Of a stretch of DNA of 46,975 nt, positions 14,511-23,258 are shown one piece after another. The notes below the pieces were generated by a model. The model saw only the letters and a program-made list of their open reading frames with translations. It ran no database searches and was not told where the DNA came from. The DNA is taken from the NCBI GenBank assembly GCA_903845365.1, contig CAIMXI010000451.1, positions 1 to 46,975 on the forward strand. Direction: 5' to 3'. This stretch comes from an uncultured Geobacteraceae bacterium. Lineage in GTDB: Bacteria; Desulfobacterota; Desulfuromonadia; Geobacterales; Pseudopelobacteraceae. Each line of letters starts with the position of its first letter. The first letter of the stretch is position 1. Both the position numbers and the translations under genes were made by a program.

Positions 14511-14574
14511 CTCGTTCCCACGCGCTGCGTGGGAATGCAGTTGTGGCGCGCTGCGCCACGAGTTGAAAATCAGT
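14511..14574 (+). repeat. Partial copy 1 of the palindromic element (left end)
   Basis: Two adjacent hairpins, CCCACGCGCTGCGTGGG and TGGCGCGCTGCGCCA, then GAGTTGAAAATCAGTG, match the left ends of the copies at 20186 and 21150. At 14586-14600 GATCCAGCAGGAAAA matches an internal part of those copies, but inverted, so this copy is rearranged and short. Confidence 0.85.
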
Positions 14575-14772: not shown

Positions 14773-17700
14773 CTACAACCCTAAAAAGCTGTTGATCACC
14801 TTCTGCACTTCAGCGATTGATACGCTACTGTTGTTGTCCTGATCCACACAAGCTTCCACCGACTTCAATCCTAGGAACATATTGATGGCACTTTGCACTT
14901 CGGCAATGGTGACGGTTCCGTTTGCGTCGCAGTCTCCCGTTTTACTTATTAATGTGGTTATCGAGGCCGAACAGGTAGCCATTGCTCCGCCGTTTGTGCC
15001 GGCACAGGTCCAATCCCAAGGGCCGCTACCAGAGACGGCTGATGCAGTGCCGGTTGTACAAAGACTTGCAGTTGGTACGGTGGTTACTGCTATGCCGTTA
15101 CTAGTGCCACAGACACCGTTGACCGGTGAGGCATAGATTACGTTCCTTGTTACGCTGCTACTGTTGCCTGCTTCATCAGTTGCCTTCACCGTGATCGCAA
15201 ATGTTCCTTCAGATGGAATGGTGAGTTTCTGTGAGAAAGTTCCACCGGTTACGCTAGGTGTATAGGTCTGGTTGTTGAAACTGATCGATACCGTCGGGTT
15301 GGTTAGTGTGTCGCTGACGGTGCCATTTATGGTGATGCTGTTCTGGTTGATGGTGACATCCTGAATTGGATAGGTGATTGCCAGAGACGGCGTAGTGTTG
15401 TCGTATGTAACGGTTCGGACGGCACTGGATGAATTACCCGCCAGGTCGGTTGCCGTGATGGTGATGCTGTTGATGCCGCTGGCAAGGGTGATAGCTGCAC
15501 TGTATCTGCTACCAGTTATGGTGGCGTTCACAGGTGTGCCGGTGTTGAGCGTGACTGTTACAGTTGATGTTTCGTTGATAGTCCCGGTAATGGTTGCCAG
15601 AGACTGGGCGGTCATGCTGTTGTCAGCCGGGGCGGATACGGTAAGAATCGGCGCCGTTATGTCCAGTGTGATGGAGCGGGTGTCGGTTGTTGTATTTCCA
15701 AGTATATCCGCGGCAACTGTTGTGATGGTGTTGGCTCCGGCTTGCATTGTGACTGCATAACTGAAAGTGCCGTTAGTGATCGTGGCAGTTGTGTTGTTGA
15801 CCTTCAGGCTGGCGACTCCTCCACTATCTGAAACAGTGCCGGAAATATTCAGGGTGGCGTTATTCGTGATTGCGCCATCTGCGAGGGTTGAAAGCGCAAG
15901 TATTGGTCCTGCAATATCTACAATCACACTGACGCTCTGGGTAGTTGAGATATTACCAACATTATCCTTGGCCCAGGCGTACAGGGTTTTATTTCCTGCT
16001 GTAGTGAAGTTGTAGATCTTTGGAGCAGTGGCGCTCCAGCTACAACCGGTTGAGCTGTTAGTCTCGGTTATGCAGTAACCGCTGACGGCAATGTTATCAG
16101 TTGCTGTGAAGGTTGTTACCGGCACGGTTAGCAGTGAGCTGGTCGGTATAGTGAAGGCAGTAACAACAGGTTTGGTTACATCCGGCAGGGTGATCGTTGT
16201 AGTTGCGGAATAACTGTTAGAAATGTTCCCAGTCAAATCGTTTGCCCAGGCGTAGAGGGTTTTGGCGGTTGCGACACCGTCAGGCATACCGGAGAAAGTG
16301 TAGCTGGTTTGTGCAGGTAAATACCAAACACACCCGGCGGCGCTGTTGGTTTCGGTCAGACAATAGCCGATAACGCCTATGTTGTCAGTTGCCGTTAAGG
16401 ATGAAACCGCAACGGCAAGTGTTGTTCCAGTGGCAGGGATTGTAAGCGATGTGACAACAGGTTTTGTCGCGTCCGGTATAGTAATGATTGTTGATGCAGA
16501 AAAGATGTTTGAGATATTCCCTGACGCATCCTTTGCCCAGGCATAGAGTGTCTTTGCGGTTGCGATACCGTCAGGAATGCCGGTGAAGGTGTAGCTGGTC
16601 GGCTTTGTAGTACTCCAGCCCGTTGTTGATACCAAAGGTGCTGATGCACTTTCCGTTATTAAGTAGCCGGTGATGGCAACATTGTCAGTTGCGGTAAGTG
16701 ATGATACGGCAACAGCAAGTGTTGTGGCTGTTCCCGGCAAAGTGAAAGCAGTAATTACAGGTTTTTGAATATCGCTGAATGTAGCGGCAATTGTGTGGTT
16801 AGCAGTAACGTTGGTAATTGTGTAGCTGTTTGCTGTAACTGATGACAGTTTGTCAACGGTGTTGTCACTGAAGGTGGAAAGTTGATACCCGCTGACCGGC
16901 GTAATGGTACAAACAGAATTAGAACCGTAAGTTACAGGGCTTGTGCAGTTTAACGGGACGTTAGCGCCGTTGACGCCGGTCGTAACAGTATATGTCTGGA
17001 TGTTGGCGGAACAATTTGCATTTGTTCCGCCATGTAGGCCACTACATGTCCAATTCCATAAGTTGCCAGAGGTGGTGGCAGAGGATGCTGTGCCGGGTTC
17101 GCAGAGGTTAGCTACGGGTGCTGTGGAGAATGTCTGGTTAAGGGATGTACCACAGACGCCGTTAATCTTTGCAGTAAATTCCGCTCCAACGTCTTTTGTC
17201 GCATCCATAGTAACGGTGCAAGTCCCGGTTCCGCTGCATGCGCCACTCCATCCGGTAAAAGTACTACCGTTATCTGCTGGCGTGGCAGTTAGTGTGACTA
17301 CCGTACCAGAGGCGAATGCAGCACTACAGGTTACACCACATGATATGTTGGCTGGGGATGAGACGACGGTGCCTGCTCCCGTACCGCTCTTTGAAACGGT
17401 GAAAAATTCAAATGGTCCAGGTAACGTTTTAAAAACAGCACCCCCAAACGTACCGGCATAAGCTGACTGAGGTGTGGCTTGGTCAATCGCAAGAGAACGA
17501 ACTGCGTATGTGTATGTAAGCCCCGTGTTGACTGCACTCCAGATGCTCCCACCATTAAGAGATTTGAATGTGCCTCCATATGTACCGGCATAAACGGTCT
17601 CGGCGGTAGATGGGTCAACCACAAGGGACAATACATATGTGTCTGTCAGTCCTGAATTGACAGCACTCCAGCTTGTTCCACCGTTAATTGTTTTAAAGAC

Positions 17701-19446
17701 ACCTCCAGTATAAGTCCCTGCATAAACTGTTTGGGAATTGGTTGGATCTATGACCATTGAAAAAACATCTGTGTCTATCAAGCCGTTATTGAAAGCCACC
17801 CAACTTCCGCCACCATCAACTGACTTGAATACGCCAACGTAGCTATCAGCAAAAGTTGTTGTTGCTCCCAAATATAAAGTCTCCGGGTTAGCGGGATCAA
17901 TCACAATAGAAGTAACAAATGTATACGACCCCAAATACAGAGGATTGTCGGAGGGTTTATAGAGTCCGCGACTGGCATAGTCCCAGCTTGCCCCACCGTT
18001 TACGGTCTTGTATACACTACCTGAATAATGATCTAATGCTCCTGGTGTTCCTGCATATATAGTTTGAGGCGTTGATGGGTTTATCACAAGGGAAGTGATA
18101 CTTTTGCTTGCAAACCAAGTGTTGGGGGCGACCAAGTTTGTTCCCATATTATTAATAGCACTCCAATTTGTCCCACCGTTGACGGATTTGAATATTCCAC
18201 CATTCGTTCCAGCATAGATAGTCAGTGGTGTACTCTGTTCAATAGCAAGTACATTGACATTTGTGTTTGTAAGCCCGTTGTTGACGACACTCCAACTTGA
18301 CCCGCCATTCAATGACTTGTAAACGCCAGCATATGTTCCTGCATATACTGTAAGGGGTGTGGACGGGTCAAGCGCAATAGTATTGATATTTGTGCCTGTC
18401 AGTCCGGTGTTACTGGCATTCCATGCACCACCACCGTTTGTGGTTTTAAAGACACCCCCCAAAGTCCCTGCATAAATATTTAATGGTGTGGCTGGGTCGA
18501 TGGTGAGGGACCAGACTGATGTATTTGCAAGCAGTCCTGTATTAACTGCGCTCCAGCTTGTTCCCCCGTTTGTGGACTTAAAGACGGAACCATTATTTGC
18601 CCCGGCGAATAAAATTTGGGGTGTTGATGGATTAATGGCAAGGGTGTCGATGTATGTAGTTGTCAGCCCGGAGTTAATGGCAACCCAGTTCCCTCCACCG
18701 TTGATAGACTTGAATATACCTGCAGTTGTTACGGCATAGATCGTCTGTGTAGTGACCGGATCAATTTCAATAAACTGAACGTATGAATTACCGTATGCAT
18801 CTGTCAGCCCAGTGTTGACAGCACTCCAGGTCACTCCACCATTAATTGACTTGAATACACCACCAGGACTTGTCCCTGCATAAATCGTCTGTGGTGTTGT
18901 AAGGTCAATTTTGATAGCATTGATGGCCACGCTTGACTGAAGACCCGTATTAAAAGCACTCCAGTTTGCGCCACCGTCAATAGACTTGAAAACACCACCG
19001 TCTGTCCCTGTATAGATGGTCTGGGGGCTGGCTGGGTCAATGGCAAGCGAACGGACAAAGGTGTTGGTCAATCCAGTATTTACAGCTCTCCAGACCATCC
19101 CGCCATTGATTGATTTGAAGACACCTCCTTTCTCGGTCCCAGCATAGACCGTCTGCGGGGTAGATGGATCAATTTTAAGTGAATGGACTATTTTATTTGT
19201 CAACCCTGTATTAATCGTGCTCCAATTTCCACCAGAGTTAACAGTCTTAAAGACACCTCCACCTTCTGTCCCCGCATAGAGGGTTTGTGGAGTAACAGGG
19301 TCAATGGCAAGTACCCGAATATCTCCTCCGTACGGACCATTTACTTGCTGCCAAATGGTTGCAGCGTGGGCATCTCGAAGGATAAAAGGTGAATTTAGTA
19401 GAGTAAATAGTAGGGGGATAGTAATGAACAAAATGATACTTTTCAT
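14773..19446 (-). CDS. Giant secreted beta-propeller/Ig-repeat protein with C-terminal dockerin
   Basis: 1557 residues. Signal peptide at 1-28 (hydrophobic core, then AHA-A). Residues about 30-680 hold 13 BNR/sortilin-like propeller blades, each ending in the VFKSxNGGxxWxxxNxGL pattern preceded by IDPxTPQTxYAGT. About 683-760 is an InlB-B/list-type repeat ([25 protein letters not shown]). About 760-815 is a Cys-containing NGVCGT...WNWTCxGxxGGTNAxC module, repeated near the end. Residues 880-1130 have three TATDNxxxxGYxxTE...[14 protein letters not shown] repeats, and 1160-1440 Ig-like repeats with [11 protein letters not shown] and SAPADNSMT starts. The last 55 residues form a type I dockerin pair of loops ([13 protein letters not shown] and [13 protein letters not shown]). 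Start ATG has GAGG upstream. Probably extracellular, calcium binding, adhesion or carbohydrate related; no catalytic domain seen. Confidence 0.88.
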
Positions 19447-20185: not shown

Positions 20186-20420
20186 CTCATTCCCACGCGC
20201 TGCGTGGGAATGCAGTTGTGGCGCGCTGCGCCACGAGTTGAAAATAAGTGAAGCCCCGTTATACGGCCATCTACAGGTTTTCTCATTTATACTTTGCTAA
20301 ATGTGTTGCACGACAGTTTCACTTTTGCACAGTCGAGACCAATATTGTGATTCTTTTCCTGCTGGATACTGGGCGCAGCGCGCCTTAACTGCATTCCCAC
20401 GCAGCGCGTGGGAACGAGAG
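20186..20420 (+). repeat. Copy 2 of the ~230-bp palindromic (MITE-like) element
   Basis: The ends are inverted repeats of roughly 45 bases. The left end holds CCCACGCGCTGCGTGGG, ATGCAGTT and GGCGCGCTGCGCC; the right end (20371-20420) holds their complement in reverse order, ending GTGGGAACGAGAGG. Between them is a unique core (CTCATTTATACTTTGC...). No open reading frame of interest lies inside. It is repeated in direct orientation at 21150, on the other side of the toxin-antitoxin genes. Confidence 0.88.
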
Positions 20421-21149: not shown

Positions 21150-21373
21150 CTAGTTCCCACGCGCTGCGTGGGAATGCAGTTGTGGCGCGCTGCGCCACGA
21201 GTTGAAAATCAGTGAAGCCACATTATACGGCCATCTACAGGTTTTCTCATTTATACTTTGCTAAATGTGTTGCACGACTGTTTCACTCTTGCACAGCGAG
21301 ACGCAAACATTCTGATTCTTTTACTGTTGGATACTGGGCGCAGCGCGCCATATCTGCATTCCCAAGCAGTGCG
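21150..21373 (+). repeat. Copy 3 of the palindromic element, interrupted at its right end
   Basis: It matches copy 2 (20186-20420) over the whole length with scattered changes, including both left-end hairpins and the CTCATTTATACTTTGCTAAA core. The right end stops inside the last hairpin (CCCAAGCAGTGCG) and resumes at 21715 (AGCAGCGCGTGGGAACGATAGG), because a 341-bp element sits between. Together with copy 2 it brackets the toxin-antitoxin genes in direct orientation. Confidence 0.88.
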
Positions 21374-21826: not shown

Positions 21827-22708
21827 TCAGGCAGACTTTATCTCTCCCAGGCTCAAGCCAGTCGCCTGTATTATTATATCAATCGCGACGCCTGCGAGCT
21901 TCAGATTACGGGCAACTTCTATATTTCGTTTCTCAATCCCCTTCTCAATCCCTATCGCAATCCCCTTCTCAACACCTTCCATTACTGCTGTTTTACTGGA
22001 ACTCTCAGCGATACGACGATCTTTGATAAAATGCTCAAATATATCACGCTTTTCTTTTGACAGCTTCAGAATATCAAGTTCTTTAGCCGCTTTTCGTAGA
22101 CCTTTGGCGCTAAAACCGTCTGGTATTTCTGAGCTCTTCAGGAAATAGATCCACTCATCCAGAGAATCTTTGGCTAAACCATCAAAATCATTCACCTTCA
22201 AGATATAGTATTCTGGATAAATGTCGGCAACATTGATAATTTCCGGAAGGTTCTTCTTCTGAACGGAGGAGAGTCTCAGGATATCATGCTTATGAATACC
22301 TCTGAATTCGTTGACTCCCTTATAGATGTAGTCTTCACCCTGACCCAGGTCAAAGTAGACAATGTTGATCGATATTACTTTCCGCACCTGATGGTAATCA
22401 AAGCCGGATACCATATAATCCGTTATCAGTTTGCTCGCGCCGTAAAGCATCCGGTGGAAGTAATCAAACTGCCCTTCGACCTGAAGCTCAATCAGGATAA
22501 GTTCGCCAGCAGCGGCTTCGGCCAGCAAATCCACGCGATTGGATTTATCGTCGCAGGTTTGTTTGTTGCCCTCGCTTTCGAGGATGTTTTTTATCTTTAT
22601 CTCCTGCAACAAAAGCTCTGAAAAAAACCCCTCCAATATTTCAAAATTGGCCTTGTTACGCAGCAGATTCTTCAATGCCCAATCAAAACTGACAAGCTGT
22701 CTCTTCAT
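21827..22708 (-). CDS. Rpn-family PD-(D/E)XK nuclease (recombination-promoting nuclease/putative transposase)
   Basis: 293 residues. It begins with FDWALKNLLRNKANFEILEGFFSELL, the family's N-terminal signature. The nuclease core has NRVD60 followed by LILIE74LQ76VEGQFDYFHRMLYGASKL, the D-(x)13-E-x-Q arrangement of Rpn/PDDEXK_2 proteins. The C-terminus has low-complexity EGVEKGIAIGIEKGIEKRN repeats, as in relatives. Rpn proteins cut DNA and raise RecA-independent recombination; some act in phage defence. Start ATG has GGAG upstream, 25 bases after the V4R stop. The gene sits in the block of palindromic repeats, just inside its right boundary. Confidence 0.87.
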   Translation of the reverse strand: MKRQLVSFDWALKNLLRNKANFEILEGFFSELLLQEIKIKNILESEGNKQTCDDKSNRVDLLAEAAAGELILIELQVEGQFDYFHRMLYGASKLITDYMVSGFDYHQVRKVISINIVYFDLGQGEDYIYKGVNEFRGIHKHDILRLSSVQKKNLPEIINVADIYPEYYILKVNDFDGLAKDSLDEWIYFLKSSEIPDGFSAKGLRKAAKELDILKLSKEKRDIFEHFIKDRRIAESSSKTAVMEGVEKGIAIGIEKGIEKRNIEVARNLKLAGVAIDIIIQATGLSLGEIKSA

Positions 22709-22754: not shown

Positions 22755-23258
22755 GCGGCAAACCCTGTCTCCAGAGCACCAGCAATCCACTTCCTTGACA
22801 TCGAATTTTTTACCGGAAAATTCAAATAGAATCCCTGCAATGAAACCTTCGTCGTAGGTGCAGATTGTTTCATCAGAAATAGGCAGACCAGAACAATCCA
22901 GGTCTTCGGCAACTGTCAGAGTAAACTCCATTTTTTCAAAGTCGGCCGATTCGACTCTCAATATTCCGATTTTCAGAGTAGCCAGAAGATCCTGCAACTC
23001 TTTGACAAAGAGGTTGAAATCGCTCTTCTCTTTGATCAAATTCTTAAACAGTTCCTTGCCAGCCAGCTCTCCCGCTTTGTAATATATTTTTTCAGCGGTT
23101 TCGGTGTCGAACTCCTGAATAATAACGTCCCGCAGCGTAAACTGCATGAGCCGGTAGACCGCCACATCCATTGTTCCACCAAGATTCGGTCGGCCAGCCG
23201 CGATATCCCCTATCATGCTCCAATCAAACATCGCCTCGTCTCTTTCTTCTTTAAACAT
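22734..23258 (-). CDS. V4R-domain protein
   Basis: 174 residues with the V4R (4-vinyl reductase) fold: GTMDVAVYRLMQFTLRDVIIQEF, then AEKIYYKAGELAGKELF, and a C-terminal CTYDEGFIAGILFEFSGKKFDVKEVDCWCSGDRVCRFEV. V4R domains bind small ligands, often hydrocarbons or tetrapyrrole-type compounds; the Cys-x-Cys...Cys cluster near the end (DCWCSGDRVC) is typical of the domain and could bind metal. Start ATG at 23258 has AGGAGAA a few bases upstream; an ATG at 23324 does not. The protein has no output domain, so it could be a sensory partner for a separate kinase. Its 3' end is repeated in front of the soluble hybrid kinase. Confidence 0.85.
   Translation of the reverse strand: MFKEERDEAMFDWSMIGDIAAGRPNLGGTMDVAVYRLMQFTLRDVIIQEFDTETAEKIYYKAGELAGKELFKNLIKEKSDFNLFVKELQDLLATLKIGILRVESADFEKMEFTLTVAEDLDCSGLPISDETICTYDEGFIAGILFEFSGKKFDVKEVDCWCSGDRVCRFEVKPA

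Follow-up and report, generated by a model that had tools for sequence, protein, structure and literature searches.

A near-identical dockerin-like tag on 32 proteins of a Geobacteraceae genome: putative subunits of a non-cellulolytic cohesin-dockerin assembly

Cohesin-dockerin modules are known outside the cellulose degraders, where they are mostly unexplained. In cellulosomes the primary scaffold combines cohesins for the cargo with a different dockerin for the anchor (the type I/II layout), and in Clostridium perfringens the non-cellulosomal cohesin-dockerin pair of NagJ and NagH (PDB 2ozn) joins glycosidases. For freshwater Planctomycetes a "planctosome" has been hypothesized (PMC6461901), and scaffold-like proteins of anaerobic methanotrophic archaea (ANME) are described as carrying a dockerin and up to 5 cohesins (PMC9012536, PMC10553843). 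The present study concerns a stretch of 46,975 nucleotides (contig CAIMXI010000451.1, hereafter the window) from an uncultured Geobacteraceae bacterium, whose draft genome (GCA_903845365.1; 5.51 Mb, 511 contigs, 99.6% complete, 3.1% contamination) we call the source genome. Its minus strand encodes a large propeller protein that ends in a dockerin-like module, here called tag A. This protein is probably an exchangeable subunit of a putative two-tier, non-cellulolytic, cellulosome-like cohesin-dockerin assembly. A first-pass annotation of the window had treated it as a single unusual protein. The mosaic is real, but 31 further proteins of the genome carry the tag, and the system as a whole has two kinds of tag.

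A search of the source genome with the last 56 residues of the propeller protein gave 39 matches, 32 of them full-length (E 3e-17 or better) and seven fragmentary or weak. Tag A is a family far beyond chance and not a one-off, and the genome search for further dockerin proteins proposed in the first-pass annotation thereby returned 32 proteins, the window's included, with a near-identical tag. The clostridial cellulosome likewise has near-identical C-terminal dockerins on many secreted proteins. The tag ends the protein exactly in 27 of the 32 copies and stops one residue short in another; in the remaining four it is followed by 106-644 residues. By a rough signal-peptide heuristic, Sec-like starts are present in 16 of the 24 complete tagged open reading frames (ORFs) other than the window's, and seven more ORFs are cut. 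For 31 of the 32 copies (the tag of a 546-residue protein on contig C471 was missed by the pattern, and one duplicate of the same tagged gene in an overlapping locus had been removed) mean amino-acid identity is 84% vs 51% at third codon positions, and the median Nei-Gojobori dN/dS is 0.068 for the 280 of 465 pairs that gave a value (185 were saturated or failed). Tag A is under purifying selection. Recent copying alone would leave third codon positions alike; a shared binding partner would explain the conserved residues. All 31 copies keep the glutamate at the end of each loop and a pair of cysteines, and the other loop ligands are nearly invariant; outside the source genome the cysteines can be missing together, as in a copy of genome G075. 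Like clostridial dockerins, tag A has an internal two-fold symmetry (identity at 15 of 23 aligned positions of a typed consensus), a feature that PMC5429695 ties to dual binding. Broken or partial copies lie in the source genome at C262:21786-21911 and 23137-23211, C254:18399-18491 (about 300 bases behind an intact tagged gene) and C471:14250-14300, which suggests that the tag may be copied as a cassette.

The structure model of tag A (60 residues, with the window's tag and 18 relatives as input; mean predicted local distance difference test score, pLDDT, 90) runs loop-helix-loop-helix, with helices only at 17-27 and 47-57 and none before the first loop. Such duplicated units of calcium loop and F helix without a preceding E helix, with the ligand positions kept, are the layout of dockerins, which measure about 55-65 residues. 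In a Foldseek comparison with the PDB, ranks 1-20 are all dockerins (TM 0.54-0.69) and the first calmodulin-type chain appears at rank 21 (TM 0.38), at E values that are weak for the 60-residue model (0.13-1.2). VIA-align listed 27 entries, all 27 of them dockerins, with Z of 2.9-6.9, a range below 8 that can reflect a mere common arrangement; second in its list stands the dockerin of PDB 2ozn (Z 6.7, root mean square deviation 2.1, 54 aligned). Unlike clostridial dockerins, tag A has the cysteine pair and fails Pfam Dockerin_1, Pfam matching EF-hand families only (EF-hand_1), and because of this missing match we call it a divergent dockerin, or dockerin-like. The terminal dockerin of the first-pass annotation thus stands as far as its two calcium-loop patterns, each with a following helix, and the model are concerned, and fails at the level of Pfam. 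As a detector, Dockerin_1 was rejected: in the source genome it gave 4 weak matches, three of them resembling a second tag (tag B, see below), and missed the tag of the window.

No cohesin is encoded in the window, as had been stated earlier (six frames, stretches of at least 40 residues, best profile E 0.92), and no second tag A copy (six frames, next-best E 0.44). Cohesins are present elsewhere in the source genome. PF00963 matches at 10 places, 9 of them above the cut-off, so the absence of cohesins from the genome, named at first pass as counting against attachment, is not what we find; six places match an extracellular cohesin class that co-occurs with the tag (profile A3). On contig C471 two extracellular-type cohesins lie in one 1243-residue protein, in the gene order tagged S8 protease, two-cohesin protein, 482-residue protein, tagged 546-residue protein. 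Contig C510 has three: one ends a 6542-residue giant beside a tag, and the others belong to two small proteins, one of which is truncated at the contig end. C39 has two, together with a degenerate tag. A cohesin on C498 lies in a 470-residue frame, and on C102 (L065:7503-9926) a secretin ends in a cohesin. Several cohesins on one protein, as in scaffoldins, are thus found on C471 and also in genome G372, where two surround a tag; unlike in the clostridial cellulosome, no protein of the tag-bearing genomes read has more than two tag-A-type cohesins. The cohesin of a related natural cohesin-tag tandem (L128) folds well in a model, and its 50 listed PDB matches are all cohesin entries. By eye, we take the N-termini of small cohesin proteins of C39, G018 and G002 to be lipobox-like, and the tail of the scaffoldin-type protein of G372 to be SLH-like, as in an anchoring scaffoldin.

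Three further observations concern cohesins. On C41 (L066:6211-7092) a 294-residue lipoprotein-like frame combines a cohesin with three CxxCH haem motifs, which is of interest in a Geobacter relative. In at least 9 of 58 genomes a frame of secretin-cohesin-like length has a second cohesin frame, of about 450 residues, at a distance of 5-7 kb. Genome G195, from another family of the phylum, has at least 9 A3 matches (C2:123388-135874 and C1:1357482-1360766), four of them in one 2203-residue frame, and no tag A at E<=1e-8; it is possibly home to a separate scaffoldin system.

The presence of PF00963 proved uninformative as a test of co-occurrence, the family being found in 56 of 58 genomes (source genome included). 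Its frames are mostly about 790-930 or about 420-500 residues long and were taken by length for secretin fusions and a second class, C102 alone among the secretin-length frames being confirmed as a secretin. Profile A3, built for the extracellular-type class, was used in its place. Among the 141 genomes of the order, at cut-offs of E<=1e-8 for tag A and E<=1e-10 for A3, the tag occurs in 14, the cohesin in 18 and both in 13. The cohesin is therefore present in 13 of 14 tag genomes vs 5 of 127 without tag (Fisher p 1.5e-13), and in 7 of 8 vs 5 of 127 (p 4e-8) once the 6 genomes that supplied cohesin seeds are left out; genome relatedness makes both values overstate independence. In 8 of 11 genomes tested for distance (not G074, G077 and G025), tag and cohesin lie on the same strand at most 500 bases apart. 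This test left out the source genome and G084 and for G025 took seven tags on contig C6 alone; when coordinates are added, the source genome qualifies and G084 does not, which brings adjacency to 9 of 13 genomes. The adjacent modules share one ORF in some genomes and occupy neighbouring genes in others. Where a genome has a single tag (G007, G074, G092, G114, G116; the fragment in G031 excluded), it lies beside a cohesin in four of the five cases. Across the phylum, 395 evenly sampled genomes contain tag A in at least 2 cases and the A3 cohesin in at least 4, the scoring having covered part of the candidates in some genomes. The single tag carrier found outside the order is G372, from another class, with cohesin-tag-cohesin in one 1054-residue ORF (L196:5189-8350); it is the cleanest independent test, because it supplied no sequence to either profile.

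The Pfam survey of the cargo took in all 32 tagged proteins (4569 residues of the 6542-residue one; seven of the ORFs are cut). Nine carry Peptidase_C13, all above the cut-off, and the DHG and GxC(Y/F)SG dyad is intact in each of the eight C13 segments inspected; S8, C1 and metallophosphatase domains occur in one tagged protein each. Lcl_C is present in 12, propellers of four kinds in 6 (the window's among three Sortilin/BNR types), and many tagged proteins are long Ig/InlB/PKD rods. In contrast to the clostridial cellulosome with its dockerin-bearing plant-wall glycosidases, the Pfam lists of the 32 proteins contain no glycosidase catalytic family and no cellulose-binding module; the cargo instead includes C13, S8 and C1 peptidases, Lcl_C proteins and propellers, and the named relatives are Geobacter-like, hence Gram-negative. 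In G025 two of 6 tagged proteins scanned have C13 and three have Lcl_C. Eight tagged or variant-tagged genes beside cohesins in other genomes contain no peptidase family in the same kind of scan, being made up of Ig-like, prealbumin-like, fn3 or RCC1 domains. To judge from these domain lists, protease cargo is marked in the source genome and G025 but may not be general, and the eight neighbours speak against degradation as a common role.

The second conserved dockerin-like sequence, tag B, ends cohesin proteins in 12 of the 13 genomes with both tag A and A3 cohesin, the exception being G002. Its profile was seeded with the C471 protein of the source genome and those of G025, G004, G007 and G082, and a tag-B profile found the other seven (G116, G092, G114, G075, G074, G077, G084). 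Taken by itself, tag B is common, with 49 of 58 genomes (source genome included) having it. By analogy, cohesin scaffolds that end in a different dockerin-like tag have the arrangement of the primary scaffold of clostridial cellulosomes, with its type I and type II modules.

From these findings we infer the following mechanism. The propeller protein would be exported by the Sec system and an outer-membrane route, and its propeller and Ig parts would form a secreted rod or binding surface. Tag A would plug, with calcium, into cohesins of the same organism, those of C471 (two) or C510 (three), in competition with the 31 other tagged proteins, which include C13, S8 and C1 peptidases, Lcl_C proteins and further propellers. 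The C471 cohesin protein would serve as an adaptor scaffold and dock via tag B onto a different cohesin, making a second tier and a possible anchor. Such an assembly would hold proteases and adhesin-like proteins together outside, near the cell and the substrate.

Several likenesses to the described non-cellulosomal systems exist. The planctosome (PMC6461901) shares cohesins and dockerins without a link to cellulose, an adaptor with both modules and peptidase cargo; its peptidases are of families M12B and M14 and its anchor is a lamin tail, unlike here, and it is likened to simple cellulosomes, whereas the source genome has a near-identical tag on 32 proteins and, in addition, a second class of tag. 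The cohesin/dockerin proteins of ANME and syntrophic sulfate-reducing bacteria (PMC9012536, PMC10553843) are likewise non-cellulosomal, extracellular and from anaerobes. The ANME cargo includes ABC-transporter binding proteins and S-layer proteins, unlike here, and the sections consulted make no mention of one near-identical tag on dozens of proteins. The tag A system is also non-cellulosomal like NagJ/NagH, whose dockerin is the second VIA match; the proteases, adhesin-like proteins and propellers of the present cargo set it apart from that glycosidase pair.

Attachment to a surface cohesin had been one of two roles considered at first pass. Attachment to a cohesin is the likeliest reading, given the genome's cohesins, the co-occurrence, the adjacency and the dockerin-like model; a location at the surface is hinted at by the lipobox-like starts and the one SLH-like tail judged by eye. 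The other role was that of a calcium-dependent cap, in which an EF-hand-type module lends stability to the C-terminal end of long repeat proteins and binds no partner. The EF-hand_1 match and the acidic ligand positions kept in both loops suit such a cap, and the cysteine pair, G075 apart, could form a stabilising disulfide. The model, however, has no helix before either loop and resembles 20 dockerins before any calmodulin-type chain, and a cap would leave the co-occurrence and adjacency of tag and cohesin unexplained. Because the same tag is found on proteins of different make-up, and four of its 32 copies are internal or close to the N-terminus, we consider this scenario highly improbable. 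Hardly more probable is a C-terminal sorting or export signal for a secretion machine, which the cohesins would accompany for some other reason. The many exactly C-terminal tags are as in sorting signals, and the source genome does fuse a cohesin to a secretin, yet four tags are internal and the one of G004 (residues 44-97 of 1049) sits just behind the signal peptide. Moreover, PF00963, mostly in frames of secretin-like length, is near-universal vs a tag in 14 of 141 genomes, so a secretin cohesin alone cannot be the reader of the tag.

A stronger alternative accepts the dockerin and assigns the assembly mainly to an adhesive cell-cell or biofilm matrix instead of a degradative machine, as proposed for ANME and their sulfate-reducing partners; PMC10553843 and PMC9012536 consider that cohesin/dockerin proteins may serve adhesion or surface attachment in both groups. 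The Lcl_C proteins and long rods of the cargo, and the cohesin-side neighbours with no peptidase family in any of the eight scanned, fit this view, the C13, S8 and C1 domains of the source genome and the C13 proteins of G025 do not, and we rate it at somewhat below even chances. Degradative and adhesive roles may both be true at once. Against a cohesin-dockerin assembly weigh, besides the missing Dockerin_1 match, the low structural scores and the relatedness of the genomes, the following points. Co-occurrence was computed at a single setting of each cut-off. G031 has a tag A fragment with a stop and no A3 cohesin, and five cohesin genomes (G018, G021, G024, G037, G107) have no tag at E<=1e-8; the first four carry a degenerate tag, and G107 has none in its 13-kb cohesin locus either. 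Tag and cohesin do not lie close together in G074, G077, G025 and G084. In the model of the natural L128 tandem, residues 149-190, most of the tag part, have pLDDT below 50, which makes it uninformative on docking. The cargo survey covered 4569 residues of the 6542-residue protein and includes 7 cut ORFs from a contaminated draft assembly. Nevertheless, the subunit reading given at the outset is the one we prefer.

The features of the propeller gene are as follows (window coordinates, all on the minus strand).

14773..19446, minus: dockerin-tagged propeller gene; single ATG ORF of 1557 residues, open throughout
19363..19446, minus: Sec-type signal peptide, residues 1-28, ending DAHA; judged by eye
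17377..19350, minus: 13 Asp-box/BNR-like blades and a degenerate 14th, about residues 33-690, Sortilin-Vps10/Ycf48-like; motif count and PF15902 (E 3.8e-22), 14th blade and outer limits by eye
17167..17346, minus: InlB-B-type repeat (PF18998), residues 701-760; Pfam
17011..17163, minus: Cys module 1 (NGVCG...C...W.C.G..GG..A.C), residues 762-812; motif
15916..16734, minus: three TDN/OmpL47-type repeats, about residues 905-1177; TDN at 918, 1018 and 1114, NF047446 (E 2.2e-12), outer limits by eye
15136..15909, minus: three Ig-like domains (Glucodextran_B/Big_13), about residues 1180-1437; Pfam, outer limits by eye
14971..15120, minus: Cys module 2, residues 1443-1492; motif
14776..14937, minus: C-terminal dockerin-like tag A, residues 1504-1557 (54 residues); genome search, alignment, model and structure comparison
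14899..14934, minus: calcium-loop pattern 1 (12 residues); position 1 D in 31/31 copies, position 12 E in 31/31
14809..14844, minus: calcium-loop pattern 2 (12 residues); position 1 D in 28/31 copies and N in 3, position 12 E in 31/31

ORF, motifs and the Pfam and NCBIfam scans bear out the secreted mosaic of 13 BNR-like blades, Cys modules, TDN and Ig-like repeats and a terminal two-loop module that had been read from the letters. Above cut-off are Pfam Sortilin-Vps10, Flg_new_2, Glucodextran_B and Big_13 and the OmpL47-type domain of NCBIfam. The regular blade motifs span residues 68-636 and, with PF15902 above cut-off, place the propeller in the BNR/Asp-box (Vps10/Ycf48-like) kind. The same scans show no peptidase or clear catalytic domain. 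The NCBIfam glycosylhydrolase family F510_1955 scores 180.2 vs a curated cut-off of 175, spread over six repeat stretches, and we would not rest an enzymatic activity on it. A promoter and terminator scan of the window gave 4 promoter-like sites vs 8.6 in shuffled sequence, i.e. fewer.

The neighbours of the propeller gene are ordinary. Upstream lies a 196-residue gene without Pfam match; downstream are a histidine kinase and a hemerythrin gene and, further on, plus-strand genes of the tRNA_Me_trans, ThiF and Cys/Met-metabolism families. The "accessory block" in which the gene had been placed was checked in part only: the downstream genes are ordinary, and a palindromic repeat occurs on both sides. 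This repeat, CATTCCCACGCAGCGCGTGGGAA, lies at window positions 14513-14537, 20188-20212, 20392-20416 and 21154-21176; of its 15 genome matches (at most one mismatch) these four are in the window and two on C322, where another tagged gene is about 1 kb away. It may be a marker of a mobile cassette. A PD-(D/E)XK family transposase gene lies upstream of the propeller gene at 21827-22708.

In the titles and abstract beginnings searched, no description of such a system in Geobacter relatives was found; an earlier mention is possible. Our analysis brings together, in one genome, 32 near-identical tags, matched cohesins, a protease and adhesin-like cargo and a second tag on cohesin proteins. As a long shot, Geobacter relatives might possess a two-code extracellular machine, in which tag A joins cargo to adaptors and tag B docks on the secretin-fused cohesin or on the haem-motif cohesin of C41; if true, export, surface assembly and possibly electron-transfer surfaces would be coupled through dockerins. 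The role of non-cellulosomal dockerins becomes directly testable here with small recombinant modules, and a likely partner would be named for many uncharacterised large secreted proteins in Geobacter relatives.

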